From: Aquabacterium sp. A3
GTDB lineage: Bacteria > Pseudomonadota > Gammaproteobacteria > Burkholderiales > Burkholderiaceae_C
Assembly: GCF_038069945.1 (NCBI RefSeq)
Contig: NZ_JBBPEV010000006.1
Coordinates: 1-64,000 of the forward strand
DNA length: 64,000 nt
Direction of reading: 5' to 3'
The first letter of the stretch is position 1. Each line of letters starts with the position of its first letter. Shown here piece after piece: positions 37,963-40,850 of this stretch. The position numbers and the translations under genes were made by a program. The notes below the pieces were generated by a model that worked only from the letters and a program-made list of their open reading frames with translations, was not told the DNA's origin and made no database searches.

Positions 37963-38608
37963 AGCCCAGACCCCGGTAGGTCACGATGAGCAGGCCGCTG
38001 CCCTCCAGCCGCTTGCGCAGGCGGTGCACCAGCACCTCAATCACATCGGGCAGCACATCGTCCTGGTCGGAGAACACGCGCGCAATGATCTGGGCTTTGC
38101 TCATGGGTTCGCCCGCACGCTGGATCAGAGCGCGCAGCACGGCATGCTCGCGAGGCGACAAATGCAGGAGTTGATCGGCCAGGGTGAACTGCTTGCTATC
38201 GGTGTCGTACTGCAAACCACCGCACGCCAGGCGTGGATTGTCTGCACCGCGTGCGCGGCGCACCAGCGCCATCAGGCGCGCCTCCAGCTCTTCAAGTGCA
38301 AAGGGCTTGGCCAGGAAGTCGTCTGCCCCCTGGTTGAGCACCTGCACCCGCTCGGCCAACGAATCGCGCGCGGTCAAGATCAACACGGGCAGGCGCCGAT
38401 CACGGGCCCTCAGGCGCTGCAGCAACTGACGCCCGCCCAGACCGGGCAGGCCCAAGTCCAGGATCAGGGCGTCATAGTCGCCATCGTCCAGCGCCCGCTC
38501 GGCCAATTGACCATCGTCCACCCAGTCGACCTGCGTGCCTGAACGCGCCAGGGCCTTGGACAACCACTCGCCCAGTGCATGCTCGTCTTCGGCCAGCAAC
38601 ACCCTCAC
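37940..38608 (-). CDS. tctD: OmpR-family response regulator TctD
   Basis: 222 residues. The receiver domain (VLLAEDE; phospho-acceptor Asp in ALILDLGLPGLGG; Lys in FLAKPFALEEL) is followed by an OmpR winged helix (LSPREHAVLRALIQ … VLVHRLRKRLEGSG … TYRGLGYAL). It starts with GTG preceded by GGAGG. It sits 26 bases downstream of aroG and overlaps tctE. By analogy with Salmonella TctDE it activates the tricarboxylate uptake operon. Confidence 0.9.
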   Translation of the reverse strand: MRVLLAEDEHALGEWLSKALARSGTQVDWVDDGQLAERALDDGDYDALILDLGLPGLGGRQLLQRLRARDRRLPVLILTARDSLAERVQVLNQGADDFLAKPFALEELEARLMALVRRARGADNPRLACGGLQYDTDSKQFTLADQLLHLSPREHAVLRALIQRAGEPMSKAQIIARVFSDQDDVLPDVIEVLVHRLRKRLEGSGLLIVTYRGLGYALEAAD

Positions 38609-38634
38609 GTGAGCCTCCCGGGTTGCGCGTCAGA

Positions 38635-39753
38635 TCAACGTGCGCGGCGCGCCTTGACCGCCTTGGACAGGATCTCCAGCACCTTCTCGGAGTCGTCCCA
38701 GCCAATGCAGGCATCGGTGATCGACTGCCCGTACGCCAGCTTGGCCGGATCGTCCTTGCCCGGCGTGAACTTCTGGGCGCCTGCGCACAGGTGGCTTTCC
38801 ACCATCACGCCAAACACCTTCTTCGATCCACCGCTGACCTGGGCGGCGATGTCTTCGGCCACCACCACCTGGCGCTCATGCTGCTTGGAGCTGTTGGCGT
38901 GGCTGAAGTCCACCATCAGCGACGGATGCAGCTTGGCGGCTTCCAGGTCTTTGCACGCCGCCGCCACACTGTCGGCATCGTAGTTCGGGGCCTTGCCACC
39001 GCGCAGGATGACGTGGCAATCGGGGTTGCCGGCCGTCTCCACGATGGCGACCTGACCGTTCTTGTGCACCGACAGAAAGTGGTGCGGGCGCGAGGCCGAC
39101 TGGATGGCGTCGGTGGCGATCTTGATGTTGCCGTCGGTGCCGTTCTTGAAGCCGATCGGCGCGCTGATGCCCGAGGCCAACTCACGGTGGATCTGGCTTT
39201 CCGTGGTGCGGGCCCCGATGGCGCCCCAGCTGATGAGGTCACCGATGTACTGCGGCGAGATCACGTCCAAGAATTCGCTGGCCGCCGGCACCCCCAGGCG
39301 GTTGATCTCCAGCAGCAGATGACGGGCCATGCGCAGGCCCTCGTCGATCTTGTAGGACTCATCGAGGTACGGGTCGTTGATCAGGCCCTTCCAGCCCACG
39401 GTGGTGCGGGGCTTCTCGAAGTACACGCGCATCACCACTTCCAGCGTGTCCTTGTGCTGCTCGCGCAGCGGCAGCAGGCGCTTGGCGTACTCGATGGCTG
39501 CGGCCGGATCGTGGATGGAGCAAGGACCGATGATGACCAGCAAGCGGTCGTCCTTGCCGTTGATGATCTTGCGGATGGACTTGCGCGTGCCCGCCACCAG
39601 GGTCTCGACCGCCGTGCCACGGATCGGGAAGAATCGGATCAAGTGCTCGGGCGGCGGCAAGGGCGTGACGTTCTTGATGCGCTCGTCATCGGTCTGCGAA
39701 GTCTTGTCGGCGGGCGGGACCCAGCCGGCGGCGGCGCTGGATTTGGCGGTCAT
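38635..39753 (-). CDS. aroG: 3-deoxy-7-phosphoheptulonate synthase (AroG-type)
   Basis: DAHP synthase joins phosphoenolpyruvate and erythrose 4-phosphate, the first step of the shikimate pathway to aromatic amino acids. 372 residues, class I-alpha, with a strong match along its length to E. coli AroG, including VIIGPCSIHDP, MRVYFEKPRTTVGWKGLINDP, SWGAIGARTTESQ and DFSHANSSKQ. The N-terminal DDERIKNV resembles the AroG (Phe-sensitive) N-terminus more than AroF, so Phe feedback is likely but not certain. AGGA lies upstream of the ATG. A leader peptide and attenuator precede it (39784–39912). Confidence 0.96.
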   Translation of the reverse strand: MTAKSSAAAGWVPPADKTSQTDDERIKNVTPLPPPEHLIRFFPIRGTAVETLVAGTRKSIRKIINGKDDRLLVIIGPCSIHDPAAAIEYAKRLLPLREQHKDTLEVVMRVYFEKPRTTVGWKGLINDPYLDESYKIDEGLRMARHLLLEINRLGVPAASEFLDVISPQYIGDLISWGAIGARTTESQIHRELASGISAPIGFKNGTDGNIKIATDAIQSASRPHHFLSVHKNGQVAIVETAGNPDCHVILRGGKAPNYDADSVAAACKDLEAAKLHPSLMVDFSHANSSKQHERQVVVAEDIAAQVSGGSKKVFGVMVESHLCAGAQKFTPGKDDPAKLAYGQSITDACIGWDDSEKVLEILSKAVKARRAR

Positions 39754-39783
39754 GGGGCTTGTTCCTGTTGCGGTGGTCGGTCG

Positions 39784-39815
39784 AAAAAAAACCGCCGGTG
39801 GGTACCGGCGGTTTT
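39784..39815 (-). terminator. attenuator terminator upstream of aroG
   Basis: On the minus strand a perfect 12-bp stem AAAACCGCCGGT / ACCGGCGGTTTT with loop ACCC is followed by eight T. It ends 30 bases before the aroG ATG. Its 5' arm (39804–39815) contains CGCCGGT, which can pair instead with ACCGGCG at leader codons 18–20 (39855–39861), so it has a built-in antiterminator. Confidence 0.88.
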
Positions 39816-39834
39816 CAGGGTTGACGTGGTTCGC

Positions 39835-39912
39835 TTAAAGGGCGTCCACTCCTGCGCCGGTGTGGGGCGGGAGATGAAAGAAACCAAAATAAAAGCGAAC
39901 GGTCGTGTCCAT
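39835..39912 (-). CDS. aroG leader peptide, Phe/Tyr-rich attenuation peptide
   Basis: A 25-codon ORF starting ATG and ending TAA. Residues 6–12 read R-F-Y-F-G-F-F: four Phe and one Tyr in seven residues, followed by HLPPHTGAG. Phe codons are mostly TTT (three TTT, one TTC). Rho-independent terminator and antiterminator pairing follow directly, as in pheA/pheS and trp attenuators. Low Phe- or Tyr-tRNA would stall the ribosome at codons 7–12, leave codons 18–20 free, and let them pair with the terminator arm. No strong Shine–Dalgarno precedes the ATG, and an in-frame GTG two codons upstream is an alternative start. Function is inferred from architecture. Confidence 0.75.
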   Translation of the reverse strand: MDTTVRFYFGFFHLPPHTGAGVDAL

Positions 39913-39946
39913 GCACACAAATGTAGCACGAGGAAGGGCTTGCCGC

Positions 39947-40453
39947 TCAAGCCTTGAGTTGCCCCAACAAGGTATCCGCGCTGCTCACCCCGTAGCCGCC
40001 CCCCTCTTCGTCGTTCAGCACCGACACCACGCCATCCTTGAGCAGCATCGAATAACGCCCAGAGCGCAGGCCCAGCCCCTTGGCCGTCAGGTCCAGCGTC
40101 AGCCCCGTGGCCTTGGCGAAATCGGCACTGCCGTCGGCCAGGAACCGCACCTTGCCTGCCGCCCCCAATTGGCGAGCCCACGCGCCCATCACGAACGCGT
40201 CGTTCACCGACACGCACCAGACCTCGTCCACACCGGCGGCCTTGAAGGCCTCGACCTGCTCGATGTAGCCAGGGGCATGGCGCTCGGAGCACGTGGGCGT
40301 GAACGCGCCCGGCACCCCGAACAGCGCGATGGTCTTGCCCGCGCTGGCCTGCGCGACCGCCACCGGGTTGGGCCCCAAGGCACAGCCCTCGGTGGGCACA
40401 TCGATGTACTCGAACAGGGTCACGGCAGGCACCGCGTCGCCAACTTTGATCAT
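39947..40453 (-). CDS. peroxiredoxin, Prx5/AhpC-like
   Basis: 168 residues and a thioredoxin fold of the Prx5 class, reducing hydrogen and organic peroxides. The peroxidatic Cys55 lies in VPGAFTPTCSERHAPGY and the partner Arg in GLRSGRYSML. No resolving Cys pair in a glutaredoxin domain is present, so an external reductant is needed. AGGAG lies 6–7 bases upstream of the ATG at 40453. It lies between the S10-cluster terminator and the aroG leader. Confidence 0.92.
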   Translation of the reverse strand: MIKVGDAVPAVTLFEYIDVPTEGCALGPNPVAVAQASAGKTIALFGVPGAFTPTCSERHAPGYIEQVEAFKAAGVDEVWCVSVNDAFVMGAWARQLGAAGKVRFLADGSADFAKATGLTLDLTAKGLGLRSGRYSMLLKDGVVSVLNDEEGGGYGVSSADTLLGQLKA

Positions 40454-40482
40454 GGTCACTCCTGATGAAAAACGCCGGACAC

Positions 40483-40520
40483 AAAAAAACCGGTTGCCAG
40501 TATCACTGGACAACCGGTTT
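40483..40520 (-). terminator. intrinsic terminator after rpsQ
   Basis: On the minus strand a long stem pairs AACCGGTTG with CAACCGGTT (outer arms 488–496 and 511–519 of the 40,000 block) plus inner CCAGT/ACTGG, followed by seven T. It lies about 55 bases after the rpsQ stop and ends the S10 transcript before the peroxiredoxin gene. Confidence 0.85.
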
Positions 40521-40574
40521 CAGCGCGGGGGGCGGGTCAAACCCACGCCCGCGTCAGGGCATCAACACCAACGA

Positions 40575-40850
40575 TCAGGCCGCGCGTGCCTTCTCGACCA
40601 GGCGGGCAACCACCCAGTTCTTGGTCTTCGACAGGGGACGGCTTTCAACGATTTCGACCAGGTCACCGATCTTGAATTCGTTGTTTTCGTCGTGGGCGTG
40701 GTACTTGGCCGAACGAGCCACGATCTTGCCGTAGAGCTCGTGCTTCACACGGCGCTCCACCAGCACGGTCACGGTCTTGTTGCGGGCGTCAGAGACGACC
40801 TTGCCGACCAGGCTGCGCACCACTTTGGCGCGAGTTTGAGCTTCCGTCAT
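40575..40850 (-). CDS. rpsQ: 30S ribosomal protein S17
   Basis: 91 residues, primary 16S rRNA-binding protein. It shows the family signatures [20 protein letters not shown] and the [20 protein letters not shown] block. Its ATG overlaps the rpmC stop by 4 bases (ATGA). It is the last gene of the S10 cluster here: rplN and rplX do not follow; a terminator, a peroxiredoxin and aroG do. Confidence 0.97.

Follow-up and report, generated by a model that had tools for sequence, protein, structure and literature searches.

Aromatic control codons, a terminator and a likely antiterminator ahead of aroG: a probable ribosome-mediated attenuator in Burkholderiales

What controls the DAHP synthase gene aroG of Aquabacterium sp. 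A3? The route to every aromatic amino acid opens with DAHP synthase, whose known control in Escherichia coli is by repressors. E. coli aroG is under TyrR. The DAHP synthase genes aroF and aroH are mentioned as being under TyrR and TrpR control (PMC11802643). An earlier note on the DNA analysed here (the whole 64-kb stretch, hereafter the window) proposed a different control for aroG, i.e. transcription attenuation by a short leader ORF rich in Phe and Tyr codons. We followed this proposal in the window, in close relatives of aroG and in genomes of the order and class.

The aroG locus

The aroG gene lies on the minus strand (39753–38635) and encodes a class I DAHP synthase of 372 aa, identified by its NCBIfam matches: the product scores 536 bits against TIGR00034 (cut-off 173) and 565.1 against the AroG model NF006723, slightly below the cut-off of 568. 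Its closest named relatives are the AroG proteins of Comamonadaceae bacterium 2PF (91% identity), an uncultured Burkholderiales bin and Aquabacterium commune (88%). Within the window's genome, PF00793 is matched by aroG and a KdsA only, and no class II DAHP synthase (PF01474) is found; aroG is the sole DAHP synthase found there.

Upstream of aroG on the same strand, the sequence and the ORF list give a leader ORF of 25 codons (MDTTVRFYFGFFHLPPHTGAGVDAL; 39912–39835, ATG starting at 39912, TAA at 39837–39835). Codons 7–12 (39894–39877) specify Phe-Tyr-Phe-Gly-Phe-Phe (FYFGFF), and the leader contains no Trp codon. The amino acids of these putative control codons belong to the pathway of the controlled gene, DAHP synthase, as in other members of the attenuator class. 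An intrinsic terminator follows (39815–39784, minus strand), evident from the sequence, the predicted fold and the relatives: its 12-bp stem consists of the arms AAAACCGCCGGT (39815–39804) and ACCGGCGGTTTT (39799–39788) around an ACCC loop, and ends in eight T (39791–39784), with the aroG ATG (39753) 30 bases further on. Leader codons 18–20 hold ACCGGCG (39861–39855, minus strand; hereafter region 2), which matching and modelling point to as the 5′ arm of an antiterminator. Its exact complement CGCCGGT (39810–39804, minus strand; region 3) would serve both as the antiterminator 3′ arm and as part of the terminator 5′ arm. The ORF, codon run and coordinates that the earlier note gave, its terminator (12-bp stem, eight T and 30 bases to aroG) and its ACCGGCG/CGCCGGT complementarity are each exact in the sequence.

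Among ORFs of 12–60 codons in the 64-kb window, the leader alone has at least five aromatic residues in six, and it has a terminator after it; 15 second-order Markov simulations of the window yield no such ORF. The 7-nt complementarity is weak when taken alone, with a mean chance of 0.13 (median 0.07; 71 leaders) that a base-shuffled leader contains an equally long match. The leader unit is nevertheless more than chance because it is conserved in relatives, as described below.

The RNA from 39912 to 39785 folds at −48.3 kcal/mol, compared with −31.9 ± 3.7 kcal/mol for 200 shuffles (z = −4.5; no shuffle as good). The lowest-energy fold contains a possible 1:2 (protector) hairpin around region 2 (39876–39845, minus strand), in which CTCC pairs with GGAG. 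In modelled folds of the relatives, at least three of the five region 2 core bases are paired upstream in 50/71 leaders, and the hairpin goes barely beyond shuffles (mean z −0.90, n = 70, and −0.74, n = 61), so that a protector hairpin is only suggested by the modelling. The same lowest-energy fold includes an 8-bp helix, GTTCGCTT/AAGCGAAC (39900–39893 with 39836–39829, minus strand), that spans leader codon 5 to beyond the end of the stop codon; by eye, no counterpart is seen in the nearest relatives, and the helix is perhaps specific to the window's genome. A simple consensus scan of 38500–40600 on both strands listed neither the leader terminator nor any promoter. It missed the terminator because its rules want T after the stem, and here A–T pairs run into the T tract; it missed a promoter because its rules want a −35/−10 pair.

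Conservation as codons and as RNA

We then searched 350 nt upstream of aroG in 80 relatives and the window (81 loci). A leader ORF, with an ATG start, a length of 18–28 codons and four or more aromatic residues within a stretch of eight, is present in 72 of the 81 loci and is followed by a GGCGG plus T run terminator in 71 of the 72, i.e. leader and terminator occur together in 71/81 aroG loci. The near-relative leaders have a consensus of roughly M...FYFxYFWFSxxxGGREAxA. The earlier note had proposed a Burkholderiales alignment as a check on whether codon run, region 2 and terminator vary together, and in most relatives the three do persist together. It had also named loss of the small ORF, or drift of its Phe codons, as evidence against attenuation: the bulk of relatives show neither, but no leader ORF is found in the 350 nt searched at 8 of the 80 nearest loci (five Polynucleobacter and three Cupriavidus). 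A ninth locus (L070) ends at a contig edge. The one leader without the terminator comes from a Ramlibacter metagenome bin (L032:2415–2560), where the leader ORF is kept and the stretch from mid-terminator to the aroG start is missing, possibly by an assembly error.

Codons were counted in 142 leaders, three of the 145 sequences having no leader ORF by the rule used. The reading frame of a leader holds 6.81 aromatic codons on average, and its two remaining frames hold 2.62 and 2.20. Phe codons occur in all 142 leaders, Tyr codons in 134, Trp codons in 96 (65/71 of the near relatives) and all three in 93. The best-kept Phe column is Phe in 69/69 (TTT 66, TTC 3), and TTT makes up 0.64 of the Phe codons in leaders compared with 0.23 in aroG genes. 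The Phe column adjoining Ser is TTC in 58/71 and TTT in 2, which suggests an RNA role for its C. Other columns of the aromatic run are partly Ala, Gly, Ser, Ile or Leu, and the first half also has Ala, Gly or Ser.

Because Trp codons are conserved as well, many relatives would read three aromatic amino acids. The proposal of sensing by Phe and perhaps Tyr codons thus holds in that both are conserved, and needs widening to Trp in many relatives. Several families, like the window, have a leader without a Trp codon. A class II DAHP synthase as an explanation for these Trp-less leaders was dropped, PF01474 being present in only 6/300 genomes.

Region 2 behaves differently from the run. Among the 71 leaders, in one of which (L076) the rule probably misplaces the core, it lies in frame 0 in 59 and in frame 2 in 12; its coding varies, for instance from PGGRE to PADGE, or the motif contains a stop codon. 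By these comparisons, region 2 is conserved as RNA and the aromatic run as codons, and both layers of constraint together are what an attenuator would need, not a plain peptide gene.

Distribution and linkage to aroG

A covariance model built on the 71 near leaders (R1) gives some match at E ≤0.01 in 112 of 300 genomes of the order, many of these covering the terminator part only. A second, broader model (R2) gives full-length matches at 1e-7 or better in 77 of the 300 genomes, in 14 families; its convincing full-length copies at E 1e-4 or better are the 77 that R1 also gives, and the remainder are weak. AroG itself is found in 233 of the 300 genomes, 156 of them without a full-length model match. 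The window's own genome has one convincing match. A class sample of 274 genomes, which takes in the window's own and two from its family, has convincing copies outside the order in a single family, f63; of the f63 genomes, 14/60 carry a full-length copy. AroG lies downstream on the same strand in all 89 loci checked (77 of the order and 12 of f63): in these loci the leader element is tied to aroG, not to the upstream gene.

Genomes that lie outside the order, or whose name places them there (L073 of Solimonas sp. SE-A11, and L200, L201 and L215–L224 of family f63), show the same leader before aroG, through either shared ancestry or transfer. Solimonas is a gammaproteobacterium. The run of the f63 leaders is often FYFWYYF, with the three aromatic amino acids adjoining.

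Putative promoter and leaderless start

A putative −10 box, TACATT (39925–39920, minus strand; extended form TGCTACATT, TG at 39928–39927), is seen in the window and in relatives. In the window it ends 7 nt upstream of the leader ATG. A TANNNT ending 5–9 nt before the leader start occurs in 70/71 near relatives (4.3 ± 2.0 expected by shuffling) and, at the same spot, in 31/68 leaders of other families (5.4 ± 2.0 expected). A TATCA box at about the same position was noted by eye in 12 upstream sequences of f63. The window's leader ORF lacks a Shine–Dalgarno, and Shine–Dalgarno-like pairing is found in 1% of 77 and 7% of 68 leaders, with 12% of 145 shuffled sequences; at the downstream aroG starts it is found in 71% of 73 and 79% of 61. 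As the −10-like box adjoins the start codon and a Shine–Dalgarno is missing, the transcript would begin at or near the AUG, and the leader ORF is probably translated from leaderless mRNA. This start is a point that we add to the earlier reading.

The five Polynucleobacter loci (L038, L041, L052, L057 and L081, bases 2485–2501) show no leader. In these, the ATG of aroG itself follows a TTAAAAT box at a distance of 6 nt, an arrangement that loss of the leader, with aroG becoming the leaderless gene, would explain.

Antiterminator pairing

When each leader is matched to the complement of the terminator 5′ arm, the longest exact match measures 4–9 nt, and 7 nt for the window. It is region 2 in 66/71 leaders and lies elsewhere in 5/71. 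Pairing was tested in 131 of the 145 sequences; of the 14 set aside, 12, including the window, lack an exact GG[C/T]GG core and two were excluded by the terminator rule. The core GGCGG/CCGCC is nearly invariant and yields no covariation. At the position just ahead of the core, the base and its partner form C–G in 57 sequences, T–A in 29, T–G in 8 and G–C in 1, and are unpaired in 36. Flank pairing is 0.402, compared with 0.333 ± 0.012 when partners are re-paired among sequences, and none of 2000 re-pairings is as high; with G–U allowed, 2 of 2000 reach the observed value.

A further alignment (A2) gives a covariation score of 0.081 versus 0.065, with 4/500 shuffles as high. The percentage paired is matched by 8/500 shuffles, and a slid partner pairs in 17 to 51% as against 73%. 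Two of the five covariation measures in A2 fail to exceed shuffles: there are three double-changed pairs (461/500 shuffles as high) and seven further pair types (497/500 as high). The covariation comes mainly from one pair and partly follows family lines, the two outermost antiterminator pairs form in only 19% and 10%, and as evidence the flank pairing test is only moderate. RNAalifold on another alignment (A1) returns the terminator only, with covariation absent within it.

The folding was also modelled. If the 3′ arm is kept out of the model, 70/71 leaders form the antiterminator with the ribosome stalled at one or more of the positions, and 68 do so at most of them; all 71 form the terminator once the ribosome is placed on the stop codon. 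When the full-length RNA is folded, the terminator beats the antiterminator in all 71, and the antiterminator would therefore depend on the order of synthesis. Taken together, regions 2 and 3 likely form an antiterminator.

Proposed mechanism and alternative explanations

We consider it very probable, on the strength of these sequence comparisons, that aroG is controlled by ribosome-mediated transcription attenuation that reads charged tRNA-Phe and tRNA-Tyr, with tRNA-Trp in addition in many relatives. RNA polymerase would start at or beside the leader AUG, and the RNA, probably leaderless, would be translated immediately. Where charged tRNA-Phe or tRNA-Tyr (in many relatives tRNA-Trp) is scarce, the ribosome would stall on the aromatic codons; region 2 would then be free to pair with nascent region 3, provided that the kinetics allow it, no terminator would form and aroG would be transcribed. 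Where aromatic amino acids are plentiful, the ribosome would reach the stop codon, region 2 would be occupied, hindered or refolded with RNA upstream, and the terminator would form; transcription would then stop at the T run and yield a short RNA of ∼130 nt. By this logic of regions 2 and 3, the first enzyme of the common pathway would be made to match the tRNA charging of its end products.

The geometry of stalling was judged with the usual ribosome footprint. Counted from the first base of the final aromatic codon, region 2 begins 9–19 nt downstream in 65/66 leaders, and because of this spacing a ribosome stalled on the run would leave region 2 largely or wholly unoccupied, in agreement with the stalling geometry of the earlier note. 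Its view that region 2 is covered once the ribosome arrives at the stop codon fares less well. Region 2 ends 15–17 nt from the stop codon in 38/66 leaders (17 nt in the window, a poor fit) and within 1 nt in only 5, near relatives that the covering would fit. Since region 2 of the window ends at about the trailing edge of the ribosome, the block in the fed state would be steric or by refolding: we infer that either a ribosome sitting in the loop leaves too little room, or region 2 refolds with RNA lying upstream once the ribosome is released. The attenuation reading of the earlier note as a whole gains support from the codons, region 2 and terminator of the relatives.

One competing explanation makes the hairpin the 3′ terminator of the upstream gene, which is peroxiredoxin-like, with the ORF a chance frame in T-rich DNA and aroG served by its own promoter. 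That gene is on the same strand and ends at 39947, about 130 nt before the hairpin. However, it is found ≤1500 nt upstream of aroG in only 3 of the 78 relatives tested (of 80), so the upstream gene changes while leader and terminator stay with aroG, and in-frame aromatic codons of a kind that the simulated windows never yield are kept. We regard this explanation as very improbable, and the AroG linkage (89/89) in effect refutes it. It is scarcely credible either that the ORF, co-transcribed with aroG, is a gene for a small hydrophobic protein that serves its own function. The hydrophobic aromatic stretch is kept across many families, as such a protein would have it, but the C-terminal half varies in frame and length (18–28 codons in near relatives) and the terminator after the ORF has a 5′ arm complementary to the ORF.

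An arrest peptide would act through the nascent leader peptide, which, from within the ribosome tunnel, would sense the free amino acids (Phe, Tyr or Trp) in the manner of TnaC, a nascent peptide described as sensing Trp. The strongly kept run F-Y-F-x-Y-F-W-F-S of the near relatives (one column F in 69/69, the next W in 57/71) speaks for it. The length, order and number of aromatic residues nevertheless vary among families, as for codons and unlike a fixed arrest sequence, the enrichment of TTT over TTC is a codon-level feature, and the direction required (on when scarce) matches uncharged tRNA; we hold an arrest peptide to be quite improbable. An additional role in trans is conceivable for the terminated short RNA or for the peptide that it encodes, as known for rnTrpL/peTrpL of Sinorhizobium meliloti, with attenuation maybe only part of what the leader does. 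The layout equals that of S. meliloti trpL, where the leader ORF is described as having its ATG at the very 5′ end of the RNA (PMC7298713). Our data give no hint of a trans target, however, and outside the aromatic run the peptides differ widely between families, which leaves such a role unlikely.

Comparison with known systems

Ribosome-mediated attenuation as proposed for aroG is of a known kind. The enteric pheL/pheA and trpL/trp systems combine a short ORF carrying control codons with a mutually exclusive antiterminator and terminator, and at the level of sequence the aroG leader resembles them in each of these respects; it differs in the gene controlled, which is aroG and not pheA or trp. 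The enteric pheL and trpL leaders have a Shine–Dalgarno, unlike the window's leader. The Rfam model Phe_leader (RF01859) scores 15.3 bits on the window (E = 5; gathering score 55), which does not make it a member. Rfam 15 gives nothing at gathering score on the window, and on 12 leader loci it gives only an SRP RNA elsewhere in one locus. Compared with the TyrR/TrpR control of E. coli, the enzyme family and the end-product control are the same; there a repressor acts at initiation, not attenuation. By analogy, the aroG leader comes closest to aroR, the leader of the aroF operon in Corynebacterium glutamicum, for which Neshat et al. 2014 is said to be the primary paper. The pheA and trp attenuators are named in PMC11802643. 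The mechanism itself is textbook, with pheA, trp and C. glutamicum aroF as known cases.

The aroR leader is described as carrying Phe-Tyr-Phe ahead of aroF, a DAHP synthase gene, whose transcription rises on Phe limitation via ribosome stalling; Tyr is without effect, as reviewed (PMC4046766, PMC11802643). The aroG leader shares with it a Phe-Tyr-Phe leader peptide ahead of a DAHP synthase gene. It is set apart, as far as that description goes, by another phylum, a longer run, frequent Trp codons and its occurrence in many families. As to the start, the S. meliloti trpL leader peptide (peTrpL) is described as made from an RNA (rnTrpL) starting at its ATG (PMC7298713), and the title of a reference in PMC4046766 tells of the C. 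glutamicum ilvB leader peptide being formed without a ribosome binding site. Both would resemble the aroG leader, with its probable leaderless start, in having a transcript that begins at the ATG or lacks a ribosome binding site; the genes and amino acids are different.

In the literature searched, which covers subscription journals thinly, we found no aroG leader or attenuator in Burkholderiales or Gammaproteobacteria, and the aroG leader is apparently a widely conserved but undescribed switch. A good part of the order, and some of the outside family, seem to use RNA and the ribosome for DAHP synthase control. We give about even chances to a broader statement, namely that this is an old and undescribed three-input attenuator, leaderless, reading tRNA-Phe, tRNA-Tyr and tRNA-Trp with lineage-specific inputs, present in many families and one outside the order. 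Its RNA of ∼130 nt acting in trans as well is a further, less likely possibility. A covariance model is ready for use, and the short transcript predicted before aroG can be sought by RNA-seq. The leader also offers a natural case of multi-amino-acid attenuation, probably on leaderless mRNA, in which lineage-specific codon choice makes the rule between codon and signal open to comparison.

Variant loci and weak matches

Some loci depart from the common pattern. One genome (G158; loci L090 and L127) has two aroG copies, of which the copy 78% identical to the window's has no model match and the 63% copy has one. In family f44, the aromatic run is down to one residue in eight in L182 (G291) and to three in L181 (G201), and region 2 and the terminator are retained, possibly through decay or a change of signal.

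Weaker matches were left uncounted. Partial matches of R1 and R2 (about positions 55–135) look like terminators with CCGCC/GGCGG stems, some of them matching on both strands of a single site. Weak full-length matches in G202, G117, G004, G185 and G172 were likewise set aside, those of G202, G004, G185 and G172 showing no leader by sight. In the class sample, L210 has no aromatic run, and L204 has a terminator and no clear aromatic run. The remaining weak match, L202 (G558, outside the order), shows no AroG-like gene by sight: the first downstream ORF of more than 120 codons is ∼1 kb on and is not AroG-like. It does hold a Phe-rich ORF, MCSFFRFSRFYFKRFF..., followed by a terminator (L202:1501–1631), which is either chance or another attenuator.
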